Positions 55,866 to 64,000 of a stretch of 64,000 nt of DNA are shown here, piece after piece. A program made the translations under genes and the position numbers. The stretch covers positions 682,001-746,000 of the forward strand of contig NZ_CP130322.1 of NCBI RefSeq assembly GCF_033025475.1, in the 5' to 3' direction. Positions within the stretch are counted from its first letter, which is position 1, and each line of letters begins with the position of its first letter. The stretch comes from Sphingomonas sp. C3-2. GTDB taxonomy: Bacteria; Pseudomonadota; Alphaproteobacteria; Sphingomonadales; Sphingomonadaceae. The notes under the pieces are model-generated. The model had not been told where the DNA came from, made no database searches, and saw only the letters and a program-made list of their open reading frames with translations.

Positions 55866-58208
55866 TCAGCCCCTAGGGACGACTTCGAGTCTGTGGATTT
55901 CGCCCTTGAATGCGGCGTGACCTTCATATTCGCCCGTCACCAGCGTCCCGGAGTCCAGACCGACGTCAAAAGTGTCCGTCACTTCGGCTGGCATCACCAG
56001 CGCCCGTTCGATCCGGCCCGATGCGACTTCTCGGTCGTTGACGCTGATGCGCATCTGCCCGCCGCTCCCCGGCCCCTTGTCCGCCGCGAAATCATAGCGG
56101 ACGATCGCCGTGCCCGCGGGAATGCGGTCACGCCCAGCGACGCGGAAGACGCGGTCGGCCTGGGTCGATCCGGCCATGGTGACGGTCGGCCGCCCGTCCT
56201 TCAGATAAAAGCTCCAGCCGCCGAAATGGCCGCCCAGCGCCGCCAGCACACCGTCCTGCGCGCCGCTTGCAGTCCGGATGTCGGCGGTCAGGGTGAAGCT
56301 GCCCGACAGACGCGGCGCGTAATCGCTGGGAATGCTTATATTCTTGCCCCAATAGACATAGCGGCTCTTGGGTTTAGCCGCGCCCATCACAGCCGCCGCG
56401 CGCTTGTTGACCTGATCGTCGACCGGGAAGACGTTGTTGCGTTCGGCTTCCGTCGCGAACAGCGCCTTCATCTCGGCCAGTTTCTGCGGATAGACACGGG
56501 CGAGATCGCGGCTCTGCGAGAAATCCTTGTCCAGATTATAAAGTTCCCACGGCCAGTCCGGGATCGGCGTGCCCTTGCGGTTATAGCCGATATTCTGCGG
56601 CGTGGTGCCGGCCCACCAGCCGTCATGATAGATGCCGCGATTGCCGATCAGCTCGAAATATTGCGTGTGCCGCTGCCCCGCCGCCCTGGCGTCGGCAAAG
56701 CTGTAGCCCATCGCCACGCCGTCCATCCGCCGTTGCCGCGCGCCGTTCACGACATCGGGCTGGGGCAAGCCCGCCGCCTCCAATATAGTCGGCGCGATGT
56801 CGACGACATGGTGGAATTGCGTGCGCAGCCCCCGTTCCTTGATATGGTCCGGCCAGGAGATGACCAGACCATTGCGGGCACCGCCCAGATGCGAGGCATA
56901 GGTCTTGGTCCATTGGAAGGGCGTCCCCATCGCCCAGGCCCAGCCCGCCGGATAATTTTCATTGGAGCGCGGCCCGCCCAACTCGTCCAGCCGCGCCAGC
57001 AGCTCCGGCTCGCTTTCCTTCGCGCCGTTGAAGAAGGTGCCGATCATGTTCACGTCGCCGTCGACGCCCGCTTCAGCCGAGCCGCCATTGTCGCCCTCGA
57101 TGAAGATGACGAGGGTGTTGCCGAACTCGCCCATGCGTTCCAACTCATCGATGAGGCGGCCGAACTGCGCGTCCTGATAGGCGAGCATCCCCGCATAAAC
57201 TTCCATCATCCTCGCGCTGATCTGTCGCCGCGCGGGCGTCAGGCTCGCCCAGGCGGGAATATAGGCGGGGCGCGGCGTCAGGCCTGTGTTGCCCGGAATG
57301 ACGCCCATCCGTTTTTCCCGCGCCAGGGTTTCGGTCCTGACCTGGTCCCAGCCCTGGTCGAACATCCCCTTGAACCTGGCGATCCAGTCGGCGGGGGCCT
57401 GATGCGGAGCGTGCGCCGAGCCGGGGGCAAGGTAGATGAAGAAGGGTTTGTCCGCATCGGCTGCCTGCTGGTTGTGAATCCAGTCTAGCGCATCGTCGAC
57501 CAGCATCTTGTCCAGCAGCTCGTCCTTCGCGCCGTGGACCGGCGTGGTGCCACGATAGAGGGTCGGCGAGAACTGGTTGGTCTGCCCGCCGACGAAGCCG
57601 TAGAAATATTCAAAGCCCAGCCCGGTCGGCCACTGGTCGAACGGCCCGGCGCGCGAGGTCGCGCCTGGCTGGATATTATGATGCTTGCCGAACATCGCCG
57701 TGTTGTAGCCGTTCAGGCGCAGCGTTTCGGCCACCGTCGCCGCGCTTTTGGGGATCACGCCGTTATAGCCGGGGAAGCCCATGGCGAAATCGGTGATCGC
57801 GCCCGTGCCGACCACATGGGAATTCCGCCCGGTCAGCAGTGCCGCGCGCGTGGGCGAACACATGGCGGTGGTGTGGAAGCGATTATATTTGAGCCCGCCC
57901 GACGCCAGCCTGTCCAGATTGGGTGTCGGGATCGGCCCGCCGAAGGTCGACGCCGCGCCAAAGCCGACGTCGTCGGTCAGCACCAGCAGCACGTTGGGCG
58001 CGCCCGCCGGGGCCTTCACCGTCTCGGCAGCGGCGGGAACGGACTCAGCGGCGGTCGGACCGATCTTGCCCGCGAAGGGTTGCAACGGCCTGGGCAGAAT
58101 GACTTCGCCGCCCGGGGCCGCGCTGCCCTGAACGGGAACCCCGACGCAAACCAGGCCAATCAACGCCGTCGGCACGAACCATTGCCGTGAACCCAAACTG
58201 TGCCGCAT
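55866..58208 (-). CDS. Exported arylsulfatase (formylglycine type)
   Basis: A 780-residue sulfatase. After a signal peptide the core begins with PNVLLVLTDDVGFG (metal-binding aspartates near residues 79-80), and the formylglycine signature CSPTRAALLTG has the modified cysteine at about residue 117. A long C-terminal beta domain follows from residue 615. Sulfatases hydrolyse sulfate esters. The start at 58208 is preferred because GGAGAGG precedes it. The leader places it in the periplasm. A formylglycine-generating enzyme is needed and is not in the window. It lies 51 bases after the alcohol dehydrogenase gene, in the same operon. Confidence 0.92.
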   Translation of the reverse strand: MRHSLGSRQWFVPTALIGLVCVGVPVQGSAAPGGEVILPRPLQPFAGKIGPTAAESVPAAAETVKAPAGAPNVLLVLTDDVGFGAASTFGGPIPTPNLDRLASGGLKYNRFHTTAMCSPTRAALLTGRNSHVVGTGAITDFAMGFPGYNGVIPKSAATVAETLRLNGYNTAMFGKHHNIQPGATSRAGPFDQWPTGLGFEYFYGFVGGQTNQFSPTLYRGTTPVHGAKDELLDKMLVDDALDWIHNQQAADADKPFFIYLAPGSAHAPHQAPADWIARFKGMFDQGWDQVRTETLAREKRMGVIPGNTGLTPRPAYIPAWASLTPARRQISARMMEVYAGMLAYQDAQFGRLIDELERMGEFGNTLVIFIEGDNGGSAEAGVDGDVNMIGTFFNGAKESEPELLARLDELGGPRSNENYPAGWAWAMGTPFQWTKTYASHLGGARNGLVISWPDHIKERGLRTQFHHVVDIAPTILEAAGLPQPDVVNGARQRRMDGVAMGYSFADARAAGQRHTQYFELIGNRGIYHDGWWAGTTPQNIGYNRKGTPIPDWPWELYNLDKDFSQSRDLARVYPQKLAEMKALFATEAERNNVFPVDDQVNKRAAAVMGAAKPKSRYVYWGKNISIPSDYAPRLSGSFTLTADIRTASGAQDGVLAALGGHFGGWSFYLKDGRPTVTMAGSTQADRVFRVAGRDRIPAGTAIVRYDFAADKGPGSGGQMRISVNDREVASGRIERALVMPAEVTDTFDVGLDSGTLVTGEYEGHAAFKGEIHRLEVVPRG

Positions 58209-58259
58209 TCGCCTCTCCATATTATCGCTTTGCCCCTTCAGCTTTTATTGGGGGGGCGG

Positions 58260-59288
58260 TTATGCTCTTGTCGGGTCGATCAGCACCTTGCACTGGCCGG
58301 TGGCCGTGCGCAGCGCCTCGAATGTCTCGGGCAGCTGCGCAAAACCGACCGTCTGCGTGTGCATCGGCGTAACCTTCGCCTCTCCGCGCGCGATCAGATC
58401 GATCACCTGCTCGAAATCCCTTTCGGTATAGCATTGGGCGAACTGGATGCTGACTTCCTTGCTGAAACCGACCAGCGGGGTAATGCTGTCCTCACCGAAA
58501 CACACGCCGGCCACCACCACCCGGCCACGGACGCCCGCCAGCTGTATGGCCTGCTGGATGAGGCCAGGAATGCCGACGCATTCGAACACAACATGCGGGG
58601 AGCTGCCGGTCAACGCGCGGAAACGGGTGGCGACATCTTCCGCCTTTGGATCGATCGTCGCCGTCGCGCCCAGTTCCGTCGCCAGCGTCCGGCGGGTCAC
58701 GGCGGGTTCGCTGACGACGACATGCGCCGCCCCCGCCAGCCGGGCGAACAGCGTGACCGCCGCGCCGATCGGCCCAGCGCCGATTACTAGGACCCCTTCG
58801 CCCTTCTTGATCGCTCCCATTTCGACCGCGTGATACGCGACCGCGAGCGGCTCGATCATGCCCCCTTCGTCGATCGAAACTCCGCTCGGCAACCGCTGGA
58901 GCATCGACGCGCGAGCAACGACGAACTCCGCATAGGCGCCAGGTCTGTTCGCCTGCGTGCCAGTGAACTGCACTTGCGAACAGAGCGCGGGCAAGTCCAT
59001 GTCGCAAGCATCGCAATGACAGCAGGCGTGGATCGGCAGCGCCGTCACCCGGTCACCAACCCGCCAGTCGCCTTTGACCTCGCGACCGAGAGCGACGATC
59101 TCGCCCGCGAATTCATGCCCCAGCACGGTGCCCGTCGCTACCGCGCCGTACTGAGTGATATGGAGGTCGGAGCCGCAGATGCCAGCGCGCCCTACCCCAA
59201 TGATAACCTCATCCGCTTCGGGCGTGGGATCGGCCATCGACCCCACCAAAAGCGGTTTCCCCATTTCCTGAAAGAAGGCAGCGCGCAT
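58260..59288 (-). CDS. Zinc-dependent alcohol dehydrogenase (MDR family)
   Basis: A 342-residue medium-chain dehydrogenase. The catalytic zinc ligands are C38 and H58 (with E59), and the structural zinc cysteines are C89, C92, C95 and C103. NAD(P) binding is at GAGPIGAAVTLFA near residue 170. It oxidises a secondary or primary alcohol to a carbonyl with NAD(P)+. It lies between the broken dehydrogenase and the sulfatase, so the likely substrate is the alcohol released by desulfation. This is inference. Confidence 0.9.
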   Translation of the reverse strand: MRAAFFQEMGKPLLVGSMADPTPEADEVIIGVGRAGICGSDLHITQYGAVATGTVLGHEFAGEIVALGREVKGDWRVGDRVTALPIHACCHCDACDMDLPALCSQVQFTGTQANRPGAYAEFVVARASMLQRLPSGVSIDEGGMIEPLAVAYHAVEMGAIKKGEGVLVIGAGPIGAAVTLFARLAGAAHVVVSEPAVTRRTLATELGATATIDPKAEDVATRFRALTGSSPHVVFECVGIPGLIQQAIQLAGVRGRVVVAGVCFGEDSITPLVGFSKEVSIQFAQCYTERDFEQVIDLIARGEAKVTPMHTQTVGFAQLPETFEALRTATGQCKVLIDPTRA

Positions 59289-59329: not shown

Positions 59330-59728
59330 TCACAGACCGCCATCAGCGGAAGTGCCACGAAATTGACGTAGTTTGTGTCGGCGGAGGCAAGGAGCAACAT
59401 CCCGTCGCGGTCTCATCGGGGGGAGTCACAACGCGCATAGGATTCGATTTCTGCGCGGGTCTGCTTGCCGCTTTCGGTCGCCTCGCACCGGGTGAGCAGA
59501 ACTTGGTGGCGGCGCTGCCGTGTCGGTAGGATTGATACCGACCGGAAGAACAGCGCCCGTGAAGCCTTGCTCGTTCACCCTCGCAGCGATCAGTTCGTCC
59601 GTCGCCACGTCTCGCGAGGCGGAAATGACGTTGCTACCCTCACATGCGAATTTGACGATGATGCCGCAGCCAATCTCATCACTGCCACCGGTCGCTATGA
59701 CCGCCTTGCCCTTCAAGCCGCAATCCAT
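59330..59728 (-). pseudogene. Broken short-chain dehydrogenase/reductase
   Basis: The start (MDCGLKGKAVIATGGSDEIG) is the Rossmann N-terminus of an SDR, with a good AAGGGAATACTCAG site, 13 bases after the receptor stop. It continues only to about GINPTD. Some 130 bases later the typical SDR end appears in pieces: NPMRVVTPPDETATG, then in a shifted frame MLLLASADTNYVNFVALPL, then in another shift DGGL and a stop. The catalytic Ser-Tyr-Lys centre is absent, so roughly half the gene is deleted and at least two frameshifts are present. It is a remnant, not an active enzyme. Confidence 0.8.
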
Positions 59729-59741
59729 CTGAGTATTCCCT

Positions 59742-61901
59742 TCAGAATTTCATGCTGATATCGACGCCCATGCTGCGGGGCTCGCCGAACATTGCCGCCG
59801 CGACATCGCCGAGCGCGAAATGGTTACGGTAATAGTTCACGTTGGTAAGGTTACGCCCCCACACCGCCACCCGCAGACCTTCGACGCCCAGCACATTGGT
59901 CAGACCCAGACGGGCGCCGAGCAGACCATAGGCATGTGTGATGATCTTGGGATCGCTGGCGACGCCGAAATATTTATCCTGCCACGCATAGTTGACGTTC
60001 GCCTCAACAATGCCGACAGACGTTTCTGGAGACTTGTAATCGGCACCTAGCGTGAAGCTGTTCTTGGGAGCATGCTGGAAATTGAAATTTGACGTTATGT
60101 CGTTACCACCCAGATCGACGACCTTCTTATATTTCGGGTTCGTGTATCCGTAGCTGCCGCTTATGGTCATCCCGTCGAACAGAAGCGCCATCAGATCAGC
60201 TTCGAAGCCCTGCGTTACAGCACTACCAGCATTGATGATATCGAAGATACGCGGGTTGAATGGATCGAAGACGTTGGTTTGGATATCCTTATACTTGCTA
60301 TGATAGGCTGCGACGTTGAACCGAATGCGGCGATCGAAAAATTCTGATTTGAAGCCAGCTTCGTAAGACATCAGCGATTCAGGCTTGAATCCTGCTGCAA
60401 ATGTCGCGGGTGTGCTAGCGGTCGGGTTGAACCCACCGGTACGGTAGCCCCGCGTGATTTTCGCGTAAACATTGGCGTCCTGATTGACGTCGAACTGGAT
60501 CGTACCCGTGGGACTGAAGTCGTTGAATCCCTTTTTACCGCTGCCTTCCAGCACGAGCACGGTCGCACCGCCCGGCGGCGTGCGTGTCGACAGGACGGTT
60601 GCCTCCCGTTCATCGCGTGACCAGCGGGCGCCGACCGTGATGTGCAGCCGTTCGTCCATGAAACGAGGCGTCCAAGTCGCCTGGCCGAAGACCGCATAGG
60701 CCGTGTTCTCCCATGTCGAGTGCCGGGGATTGTAACCGCTTGGCATCAGGGAATTGTCGTCACCGAAACCGGATTCTCTGAAATAATAGAGGCCGCCGAC
60801 ATATTTGACGCTGTCATCGAATAAGTCGCCGATCAACTGCAACTCTTCACTGAACTGCTCCTGATTGGTCGAATTGGTATTTGAAAATGGCAGAAACGCT
60901 CGAACCGGACCGGGGTTATAAACCTGATTTGTATTGTCGTTCAGCCGCCGGTAACCGGTGATGGACTTGATCGTCAGGCTGGAATTGATGTCATAGATCA
61001 ACGTCAGATTATGCCCCTGCACCTGCGTGTTGCCGGGTCGCAGGACGAAGAGGCCGGAGCTTGCAGTGCGAGACAGCGTTCCTTCGGCGGGGTAGAGCGG
61101 CACCGACTGGCTGAAGGTCGATGTGTCGTCGATCCATGACGAGTCGTAAGTGTAGCGCGCCTCGAAGGCGTCGGTCGGCTGCCACCGCAGCGCGGCCCGA
61201 ACAGCCTCGCGGTCAACATCGCCGAAACGACCCTCGCCAGGACCTAGATTCCTGACAAATCCGTCCTTCTTCACGCGTAGATAGGTAAGTTCGGCGGCAG
61301 CCGTTTCGCCGAACGGGATGTTTATCGAGCTGCGCGAGCGGAACTCGCTAAAGCTGCCGAAACTTAGGCTCTGCTGGGCGCTAAAGTCACCGAGCTGCGG
61401 CGCCTTTGAGATGAAATTGATGGCACCGGCGGTCGCGTTTCGGCCATAGAGCGTGCCCTGCGGACCACGCAGCACTTCGATCCGCTCCAGTTCAGCCAAC
61501 TCATTGGCTAGCCCTTGCCCCTTGGCGACATATACGCCGTCCACATAGACTGCGACGGGGTTATCACGTGTCTGGGTCGCCGCCGGTTCACCGATGCCAC
61601 GAATAGTGACTCGCAGCGTCGTACCCGTGTTTGGATGCGGGGAAACCTGCATATTTGGCACCGCAGAGCTTAGGTCCGCGAGCGAAACGACACGCTTCGC
61701 TTCCAGAGCTCCGACATCCAGCGCCGAGATCGAGATCGGCGTATCCTGTAGCGATTCAGCGCGCTTTTGCGCCGTCACGACGATATCGGCCAGACCGCGG
61801 CTGTCGCCGTCCGCCTCTTGCGCGGCCAAGTCGGCGGATTGCGCGAGCGCCGGCGCCTGAAACGCAGCCGTCACCATCAGAGTCATCAGAAACCGCTTCA
61901 T
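59742..61901 (-). CDS. TonB-dependent outer-membrane receptor
   Basis: A 719-residue receptor with a Sec signal (MKRFLMTLMVTAAFQAPALAQ). The TonB box region is DIVVTAQKRAESLQDTP, a common sphingomonad form. The plug domain follows (RGIGEPAATQTRDNPVAVYVDG, LRGPQGTLYGRNATAGAINF), and a beta-barrel ends in aromatic F at the C-terminus. Such receptors move large or rare substrates across the outer membrane with energy from TonB. It starts the minus-strand operon and is divergent from the chimeric regulator, so it is the likely uptake step for the cluster substrate. Confidence 0.93.
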   Translation of the reverse strand: MKRFLMTLMVTAAFQAPALAQSADLAAQEADGDSRGLADIVVTAQKRAESLQDTPISISALDVGALEAKRVVSLADLSSAVPNMQVSPHPNTGTTLRVTIRGIGEPAATQTRDNPVAVYVDGVYVAKGQGLANELAELERIEVLRGPQGTLYGRNATAGAINFISKAPQLGDFSAQQSLSFGSFSEFRSRSSINIPFGETAAAELTYLRVKKDGFVRNLGPGEGRFGDVDREAVRAALRWQPTDAFEARYTYDSSWIDDTSTFSQSVPLYPAEGTLSRTASSGLFVLRPGNTQVQGHNLTLIYDINSSLTIKSITGYRRLNDNTNQVYNPGPVRAFLPFSNTNSTNQEQFSEELQLIGDLFDDSVKYVGGLYYFRESGFGDDNSLMPSGYNPRHSTWENTAYAVFGQATWTPRFMDERLHITVGARWSRDEREATVLSTRTPPGGATVLVLEGSGKKGFNDFSPTGTIQFDVNQDANVYAKITRGYRTGGFNPTASTPATFAAGFKPESLMSYEAGFKSEFFDRRIRFNVAAYHSKYKDIQTNVFDPFNPRIFDIINAGSAVTQGFEADLMALLFDGMTISGSYGYTNPKYKKVVDLGGNDITSNFNFQHAPKNSFTLGADYKSPETSVGIVEANVNYAWQDKYFGVASDPKIITHAYGLLGARLGLTNVLGVEGLRVAVWGRNLTNVNYYRNHFALGDVAAAMFGEPRSMGVDISMKF

Positions 61902-62083
61902 ATCACCCCCTCCTCAGGATTTTTTTCCTCCGCCCAGTGTCTACGCTTGGGTCGGACGCTTAGTGACCATGCCGCTGATCCTATAAAGCGTGATCTCCTC
62001 CAGCATCCCCAATTATGATTATTCAAATTTTTATAAATTTCCGAAATTTTCTGATGAACGTATTATTAAATCTATCTTTTCAT

Positions 62084-62098: not shown

Positions 62099-62183
62099 CA
62101 GAAACTTCTATTTGTTTGTGAGTTACAAATATTGATCGCATGATCGATGATGAGACCCAATTTGCCGCGGAGGACAAACGCAC

Positions 62184-63713
62184 ATGGCGAGCGATTTCCA
62201 GCTTAATGACGACGAACGAGCGCGCCTTGAGGAGATTGCAAAATCGCCGCATTCTCCGCCGTCACTCGCGCAGCGATCGAAGATCATCTTGGCCTCGGCG
62301 CTTTCCAATGCGTCCGCCATAGACATTGCCCAACAGCACGGCGTGTCACCGGCAACCGTCCGCCGGTGGCGGCGGCAATTTTCAATTCTCGGATCGGAGG
62401 GCCTGGCCGATGCGCAACGATCCGGCGCGCGCCGCCAGATCAGCGATGCCATGCGGGCGAGAATAGCCGAGCTCCATGCCGCCGGGCGCGATACGCGTCG
62501 GATCGCGCGGAACATCGGAGTTAGCCAAAGCTCTGTCTCCCGTATCCTCCGACAGATGAAACCCGCCGTCGGTGCGAATACAGAGGCTCCCGCGCCGGAC
62601 ATCAGCGCACTAATACGGGAATTATTCGAGAGCCTTGCCGACACCACGCCGTTGGCCAGATTCCTCAAATCTCTCCAAAATAAAACAAATTCATTTTATT
62701 GCGGACTACTTGTTTTTTCCAATAAAAGCATGAAACCCAGCTTCATACTAGCCGATGGTCAACCATTGGAAGGTGAATTGCCGTATATTGAAAAATATTA
62801 TAAGAAAGAATTACTATTATCACTTCCAGAAGGAAAAGTCATTACTTCAAGTGACTTATTTTCATACGATGAATTTCATGGAAGTGAATTATATCAAGAA
62901 TATTTAAAGGAATATGGCGTTGGCCATATTCTCGGCATGGATATCGGTACAGTTCGCGGCGTTGCCGGAAATTTCCGGCTCGCGCGACTGGAAAGCGACG
63001 AAGACTTCGGGGCACGCGAACGCGCGTTGTGCGAGGCGCTGATTCCCTATTTGAGGGCCGCGCTGAACATCCTCGTCATGCGTCTCGACATGGAGGCGGA
63101 AAAGGAAGCCCTGTCGGCCACCGTGTCCGGGATGTCCGTGGGCAGTATTCTGGTCGATCCGGACGGCGTGGTCTTGGAGGCGAATCCACCTGCCTTGGCG
63201 ATATTGGATCAACACGACGGCCTGATACTAACGAACAACAGGTTGGTCCTAGATGAACCGGCCAAATCCCGGCTACTTCATGACCTGATCCGCAAAAATG
63301 CTGAAAGGAAGAATAATTTCTCGGCATCGGGGTCCGCGCGTGCCATGATGGTTGAGCGCCCGTCAGGACGAGAAAGCATCAGCCTAATCGTCCGGCCCGG
63401 TTCTGGCGCGAAGCAATTGGCGATCCGGCAGACCGCACTTATCCATCTGGTCGATCCGGCGCGGCCCCGCACTTCCGTGATCGACGCCCTGATTCATTTG
63501 TACGGACTAACCCCCGCCGAAGCAAAGGTAGCGCTGTTCCTTTCCAACGGCAATTCCATCGCCGAAACCGCGCGCGCTAGCACGACGAGCCAAAATACGA
63601 CCCGGTCCCATATCCGATCGATCTTCTCAAAAATGGGAATCAATCGTCAGTCGGAACTTATCAGAACCGTTCTGATCAGCGTTGCCATGCTTCCCATGCA
63701 GACTCAGCCCTAG
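62184..63713 (+). CDS. Chimeric regulator: IS630-like HTH fused to a LuxR-type regulator
   Basis: A 509-residue protein. Residues 1-125 are transposase-like: an opening like IS630-family proteins (LNDDERARLEEIAK), a helix-turn-helix at 44-66 (DIAQQHGVSPATVRRW) and a second at 93-123 (DTRRIARNIGVSQSSVSRIL). Residues 140-300 are GAF-like, 310-425 PAS-like (SVGSILVDPDGVVLEANPPAL), and 438-497 are a LuxR-type DNA-binding domain (LTPAEAKVALFLSNGNSIAE). Codons 163-245 are strongly AT-rich. The ATG at 62184 follows GGAGG at 10 bases. It is divergent from the receptor, so it likely controls that operon. The stop lies against an IS element. Confidence 0.85.
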   Translation: MASDFQLNDDERARLEEIAKSPHSPPSLAQRSKIILASALSNASAIDIAQQHGVSPATVRRWRRQFSILGSEGLADAQRSGARRQISDAMRARIAELHAAGRDTRRIARNIGVSQSSVSRILRQMKPAVGANTEAPAPDISALIRELFESLADTTPLARFLKSLQNKTNSFYCGLLVFSNKSMKPSFILADGQPLEGELPYIEKYYKKELLLSLPEGKVITSSDLFSYDEFHGSELYQEYLKEYGVGHILGMDIGTVRGVAGNFRLARLESDEDFGARERALCEALIPYLRAALNILVMRLDMEAEKEALSATVSGMSVGSILVDPDGVVLEANPPALAILDQHDGLILTNNRLVLDEPAKSRLLHDLIRKNAERKNNFSASGSARAMMVERPSGRESISLIVRPGSGAKQLAIRQTALIHLVDPARPRTSVIDALIHLYGLTPAEAKVALFLSNGNSIAETARASTTSQNTTRSHIRSIFSKMGINRQSELIRTVLISVAMLPMQTQP

Positions 63714-64000
63714 AGGCTCACTCCTAGCCATGCCCCCTCACGCAGCCCATGACGGCGCCCGTCTCGTCGCGGTCCTTAGGCGGCGTGGACAAATTTGAGC
63801 CAGTATCTGGCAGTGGCAAGATGGACCATGCCGAGGAAGCTGTTGGCCAGTTGGTCGTAACGGATGGCGATCGCACAGTTGATCTTGAGGTGGCCGAACA
63901 TGCGCTCGATGTGGTTGCGCTGCTTGTAGAGCGCCCTGTCGTATTCGATCTTCACACGGCGGTTTGACCTGCCGGGGATGACGGCATCGTCCTTCCGTTT
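63714..64000 (-). mobile_element. IS5-family insertion sequence, partial at the window edge
   Basis: The region directly after the regulator stop carries the 3' end of an IS5-type transposase reading leftward, with a short non-coding end (63714-63775). The sequence from about 63714 (AGGCTCACTCCTAGCC) is the likely terminal repeat region. The other end and the target duplication lie outside the window, so the precise boundary is unknown. Confidence 0.7.
63776..64000 (-). CDS. IS5-family transposase, C-terminal part
   Basis: A frame on the minus strand enters from the right edge and ends at TAA (63776-63778), giving 74 residues. It contains YKQRNHIERMFGHLK, the conserved Y-x2-R-x3-E region with the last catalytic glutamate of IS5-type DDE transposases, followed by RYDQLANSFLGMVHLATARYWLKF and the end VHAA. 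The rest lies outside the window. Confidence 0.85.
   Translation of the reverse strand, partial: KRKDDAVIPGRSNRRVKIEYDRALYKQRNHIERMFGHLKINCAIAIRYDQLANSFLGMVHLATARYWLKFVHAA

Follow-up and report, generated by a model that had tools for sequence, protein, structure and literature searches.

The gene at 62184–63713 (+) of the 64 000-nucleotide stretch of DNA analyzed in this study (the window) encodes a 509-amino-acid protein in which the DNA-binding head of an IS630-type transposase is joined to a GAF-like/PAS-like/GerE regulator, and this architecture is established. The fusion is real and conserved, and it is probably functional. Judged from its sequence, the protein is a regulator with a transposon-derived second DNA-binding domain. 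Furthermore, four other genomes keep both the fusion and two upstream DNA sites, so that the fusion looks less like an accident than like the durable re-use of a piece of a transposon.

The open reading frame is uninterrupted from the ATG at 62184 to the stop codon at 63713 and is preceded by GGAGG (62169–62173), 10 nt 5' of the ATG, in line with the good ribosome site and the unbroken joint described in a first-pass annotation of this DNA. The head spans residues 5–125 (62196–62558, +) and consists of a leader helix, a first helix–turn–helix (HTH1, residues 26–74, 62259–62405, HTH_23), a linker (residues 73–86, 62400–62441, GLADAQRSGARRQI) equivalent to the R.GRPR/R.GAPR linker of IS630 transposases and 64–86% identical among orthologues, and a second helix–turn–helix (HTH2, residues 88–125, 62445–62558). 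The first 125 residues had been described as IS630-type, on which profiles, tblastn and alignment agree. The Pfam matches are HTH_23 (1.2e-16, residues 26–74), HTH_32 (9.8e-11, residues 58–122) and HTH_29 (8.3e-11), and the NCBIfam IS630 transposase profile matches residues 31–125 at 1.7e-12 (profile positions 2–108 of 299). In tblastn searches of plasmids with the head alone, annotated IS630 transposases were ∼35–39% identical over residues 3–123/125; the best row, at 41% identity, was without annotation. Class- and family-wide searches with the head gave resolved matches that were mostly IS630-type transposases of ∼340–390 amino acids with DDE sequence downstream, the DDE part 3' of the head matches being recognized by eye. 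One match (L070) resembles an IS481-type element, and each of the four heads that were scanned matches IS481 as well as IS630, the former less well. Matches in other long open frames (L094–L096) were set aside as transposase-like or spurious frames and not regulator fusions, and no second match to the head was found elsewhere in the window's genome. The full-family IS630 profile NF033545 scores 45–47, below its cut-off of 100, and the DDE domain is absent; the fused protein is best classified as carrying an IS630-type head only, and not as an IS630 transposase. The AF2 model of the head has seven helices (pLDDT 88), and its top Foldseek matches are Cbp1, TnsB, SETMAR, Mos1, Tc3 and Pax-6, none of them at E ≤ 0.001.

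Alignment of the head with IS630 transposases is colinear through the leader helix, HTH1, the GAPR linker and HTH2, with seven residues absent just before HTH2. It is owing to this shortening that HTH2 looked like a second, resolvase-like element in the first-pass annotation, whereas it is actually the second half of the IS630 head. A separate resolvase module for residues 88–125 was rejected because HTH_7 reached 20.3 bits, below its cut-off of 23.8, and the stretch aligns with IS630 HTH2. HTH1 and HTH2 together form one bipartite domain, and the three DNA-binding elements proposed earlier are therefore reduced to two DNA-binding domains. When the whole fused proteins were aligned together with IS630 heads, the second HTH was misplaced onto GerE; heads and bodies were for this reason aligned separately.

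The head is followed by a variable inter-domain linker (residues 127–139, 62562–62600; low pLDDT, 0–36% identity among orthologues), a GAF-like or autoinducer-binding-like sensor domain (residues 140–300, 62601–63083), a PAS-like domain (residues 318–425, 63135–63458) and a GerE (LuxR-type) DNA-binding domain (residues 436–500, 63489–63683). Pfam places GerE at residues 442–495 (E = 1.5e-11, 44.2 bits against a cut-off of 23.5), and it was found in all four orthologues scanned. The AF2 model of the full protein has a mean pLDDT of 82 and shows the GAF-like domain, a long helix (residues 277–316), the PAS-like domain and GerE. According to Foldseek, the first sensor domain resembles the ligand-binding domain of VqsR (TM 0.70 on the target), and the best matches of the second include VqmA (PAS-HTH). 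The N-terminal sensor that LuxR/FixJ regulators require is thus represented, in the predicted structure, by the GAF-like and PAS-like domains. Structure prediction had been proposed as a check; with the open frame and the GerE match, the models bear out the earlier claim that one frame joins the head to a complete GAF/PAS-like LuxR-type regulator. The G+C content falls sharply inside the gene at 62670–62912 (codons 163–243) to 30%, with a GC3 of 21%, other parts having 57–62%. The same dip is weaker in the orthologues, and this GAF-like stretch is poorly conserved (42–52% identity).

A search for homologues with the same domain order had also been proposed, and full-length fused orthologues (L012, L040, L060 and L127) were identified in four further genomes of the same family, namely G062, G134 (Croceicoccus estronivorus MH-B5), G457 and G1044. 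The domain order and length are the same in all five genomes, which represent three genera, and the three orthologues measured are 56–67% identical. The fused gene is absent from the window's four congeners searched and present in two of 94 genomes of the genus of G457, so that its distribution is rare and patchy; phage records and viral contigs yielded no relative. Many headless proteins, including nine matches in the window's genome, align with residues ∼139–503 at no more than ∼34% identity and have no head. In a body tree built without the head columns, a branch with 100/100 support sets the four fused rows known at that stage apart from the 30 headless rows, and in the head tree the heads of all five genomes group together (100/99). 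The fused proteins are thus one clade beside headless LuxR relatives, for which a single fusion event suffices.

The head residues are 50–65% identical while synonymous change is near saturation. Between the window protein (P0001) and L060, the head has a dN of 0.25 and a dS of 1.04, comparable to the other domains; the linker at residues 127–139 is free to vary, unlike the head and the sensor domains. Both head and body are under purifying selection, and the retention of the head under such selection in five genomes makes it very probable that it is translated and selected, which supports the exaptation of a transposase head put forward in the annotation. The same order and length across three genera and the purifying selection also refute a chance event or assembly artefact by which, in a single genome, a fragment of a transposon came to be read in the frame of a regulator. 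An IS5-type transposase gene just 3' of the fused gene would speak for that explanation, but its probability is negligible.

Conservation within the head is uneven. Four orthologues show no variation in the second recognition helix (SQSSVSRI) or in most of the linker, and the leader region (residues 5–44) is among the least conserved portions. The latter would fit a head that serves assembly, through oligomerization or contact with RNA polymerase or another protein, and not DNA recognition, as would the ability of transposase heads to take part in synapsis; however, the invariant recognition helix and the largely invariant linker argue against such a role, which is considered improbable. A separate question, compatible with the main model, is whether the head was taken directly from a transposase or from an IS630-type HTH protein that stood alone and had been domesticated before. 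A 151-amino-acid head-only protein in another genome of the same family (L113, 1444–1899, −; IS630 8.8e-20, no DDE domain) may be such a domesticated protein and clusters with the heads of the fused proteins (93/91), although this grouping involves long branches and just 129 columns. Moreover, it may instead be a truncated transposase, and its second HTH is without the shortening present in the fused heads; the indirect route is rated rather unlikely.

The fused genes sit in a variable catabolic and uptake island. In the window, the TonB-dependent receptor gene that had been noted as divergent from the regulator lies at 59742–61901 (−) and is the likely target. On the same strand are a zinc alcohol dehydrogenase gene 3' of the receptor (58260–59288, −) and a gene for a sulfatase of 784 amino acids (55866–58220, −). 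The receptor is 74% identical to that divergent from the orthologue in L059, the sulfatase is 72–75% identical to its L059 counterpart, and the alcohol dehydrogenase is 62% identical to one divergent from the orthologue in L058. Genes for a TauD dioxygenase, an MFS transporter, a TPP enzyme, an amidohydrolase, SDRs and a PQQ dehydrogenase lie near the orthologues. Sulfate esters or steroids as substrates are only a guess, based on the enzymes present and the named species. In G457 the divergent TonB receptor gene is internally deleted to a short remnant (L060, 1–268, −). A 100-amino-acid frame at 59426–59728 (−), which has no Pfam match at 1e-5, resembles the truncated start of a short-chain dehydrogenase that is intact in L059. 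On the other side, the IS5-type (DDE_Tnp_1) transposase gene (63776–64000, −) ends ∼60 bp past the regulator gene.

Comparison of the regions upstream of the fused genes revealed two common islands, box A and box B, the former lying about 100–120 nt upstream of the latter. In the window, box A is a 22-bp dyad-like element (62003–62024, +; GCATCCCCAATTATGATTATTC) lying ∼100 nt 5' of the TonB receptor start. The dyad, GCATnnTCC-N4-GGAnnATGC, is conserved in the first four fused loci, and the fifth (G1044) has a copy with two mismatches; the poorest dyad of the set is that of the window. Genome-wide, box A was sought by pattern searches; a reversed-pattern control was strikingly low and was set aside because the reversed pattern holds stop-codon-rich words. 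A further exact match in G062 lies 95 nt before another TonB receptor gene; the adjoining gene encodes a PQQ dehydrogenase that shares 80% identity with one from the cluster of C. estronivorus. This dehydrogenase gene is itself preceded by a weaker A/B pair of similar spacing, and a search beside this second A/B place for a relic of the fused gene found none. Box-A-like dyads (shuffle p ≤ 0.01) also lie upstream of four among the five closest headless relatives (L091, L092, L014 and L055), a modest result given that 4/44 loci reached p ≤ 0.01 against 1/44 coding controls and that L091 and L092 are close relatives. Given this occurrence before headless genes, box A is probably the ancestral LuxR/GerE site. 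In two genomes (L106, 4698; L107, 4812), a common dyad, CATCACCCATTTGGGTTATGC, lies just before the gene preceding a headless LuxR relative and is perhaps the operator of that relative.

Box B (62120–62131, +; GAGTTACAAATA) is a 12-bp element 64 nt upstream of the fused gene and is the only exact match in the window's genome. Each of the four genomes searched has exactly one match to GAGTTAYAAATA, always before the fused gene, and among the 98 loci examined exact box B is confined to the fused loci. G1044, which was found after the motif had been fixed and had no part in defining it, has box B where it was predicted to be, 64 nt from the start codon on the upstream side. Across the five genomes, 11 of the 12 columns are invariant and the flanks are unconserved, with three scattered invariant columns elsewhere in an ungapped comparison of 110 nt. 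In each of the five, box B lies 52–64 nt 5' of the start codon of the full-length gene and is the sole sharply conserved near-upstream element, which argues against transcripts beginning inside the gene. The idea that an internal start leaves the head untranslated, which had been named as fatal to the first-pass reading, thus appears improbable on this ground and on that of head conservation.

In the simplest reading, box B serves the head or arrived together with it, and may be its DNA site. The new operator choice through the head that had been suggested earlier thereby becomes a specific hypothesis that is still unproven. The length of box B, 12 bp, counts against it, since bipartite heads of the Tc1/mariner type cover about 20–26 bp of DNA. 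Descent of box B from the terminal repeat of an IS630 element was also considered but found no support, since the repeats of the two IS630 elements in which repeats were found do not resemble it. As the fused genes are orthologues, shared ancestry alone could preserve both head and box B. The main rival is a core promoter, because TATAAATA lies inside box B at a −10 position, 52–64 nt before the start codon, in an AT-rich intergenic region. The fusion would then still be real and conserved, but box B would be only a −10 region, the head would bind elsewhere or aid non-specific or AT-rich binding, and all specific control would pass through GerE at box A. However, the whole of GAGTTAYAAATA is conserved, well beyond a hexamer, with no conserved −35 region; there is a single exact match per genome; and in G062 a one-mismatch copy occurs upstream of another gene, close to a copy of box A. 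The core-promoter explanation is held to be less probable than not.

In the proposed model, a single ancestral fusion would have attached the whole bipartite DNA-binding domain from the N terminus of an IS630-type transposase, comprising leader helix, HTH1, GAPR linker and HTH2 but not the DDE catalytic domain, to a LuxR-type regulator of a sphingomonad that has GAF-like and PAS-like sensor domains, giving a regulator with two DNA-binding domains. GerE, probably as a dimer, would read box A and exert ligand-responsive control over the divergent TonB-receptor and catabolic (sulfatase) genes. The transposase head would read box B beside the regulator's own start, leading to autoregulation, and the protein might bridge the roughly 115 bp that separate the boxes. 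The pairing of domains with boxes is inferred, as are the bridging, the ligand and the sign of regulation; the model as a whole (one fusion, GerE and box A controlling the TonB-receptor genes, and the head and box B autoregulating) is judged slightly more probable than its negation.

Compared with known systems, the head is closest to those of IS630 transposases (Tc1/mariner superfamily), with which it is colinear over residues 5–124 at ∼26–41% identity, with the same leader helix, HTH1, GAPR/GRPR linker and HTH2; it differs in lacking the DDE domain, in having seven residues fewer before HTH2 and in being joined to a regulator. The body aligns with sphingomonad GAF-like/PAS-like LuxR (GerE) paralogues, which have no head and lie outside the clade of the fused set. 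Eukaryotes offer well-documented examples of transcription factors derived from transposases. In the open-access papers searched, no fusion of a DDE-transposase head to a bacterial LuxR regulator was found, and DDE-transposase DNA-binding domains joined to bacterial sensor-regulators seem scarce. Another transposon protein turned bacterial transcription factor is TldR, which derives from the transposon protein TnpB. However, TldRs are RNA-guided transcription factors (PMC13418256) and belong to an unrelated protein family. The Ner/SfsB case likewise involves a mobile-element HTH recruited into host regulation, here of carbon metabolism, but as a whole phage regulator and not as a transposase head on a host regulator; LuxR goes unmentioned in the review that describes it, which covers the recruitment of mobile elements in prokaryotes (PMC8987985). 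The fused family combines a single fusion event with headless outgroups and a pair of candidate sites that differ in phylogenetic spread, so that promoter rewiring by a captured transposon domain in bacteria becomes directly testable. In SETMAR and Pax, which have Tc1/mariner-type or paired DNA-binding domains, a bipartite domain of the Tc1/mariner type is similarly re-used beside another module; the fold matches are weak. Both are eukaryotic, and SETMAR retains the transposase catalytic domain, unlike the present protein, which is bacterial, of the ligand-sensing LuxR type and still equipped with its own DNA-binding domain. That it is a bacterial counterpart of these host–transposase fusion factors, the head adding a second, once-per-genome operator (box B) to the ancestral dyad operator (box A) to give a bivalent, self-wired catabolic-island regulator that persists across genera, is a possibility rated just short of even.
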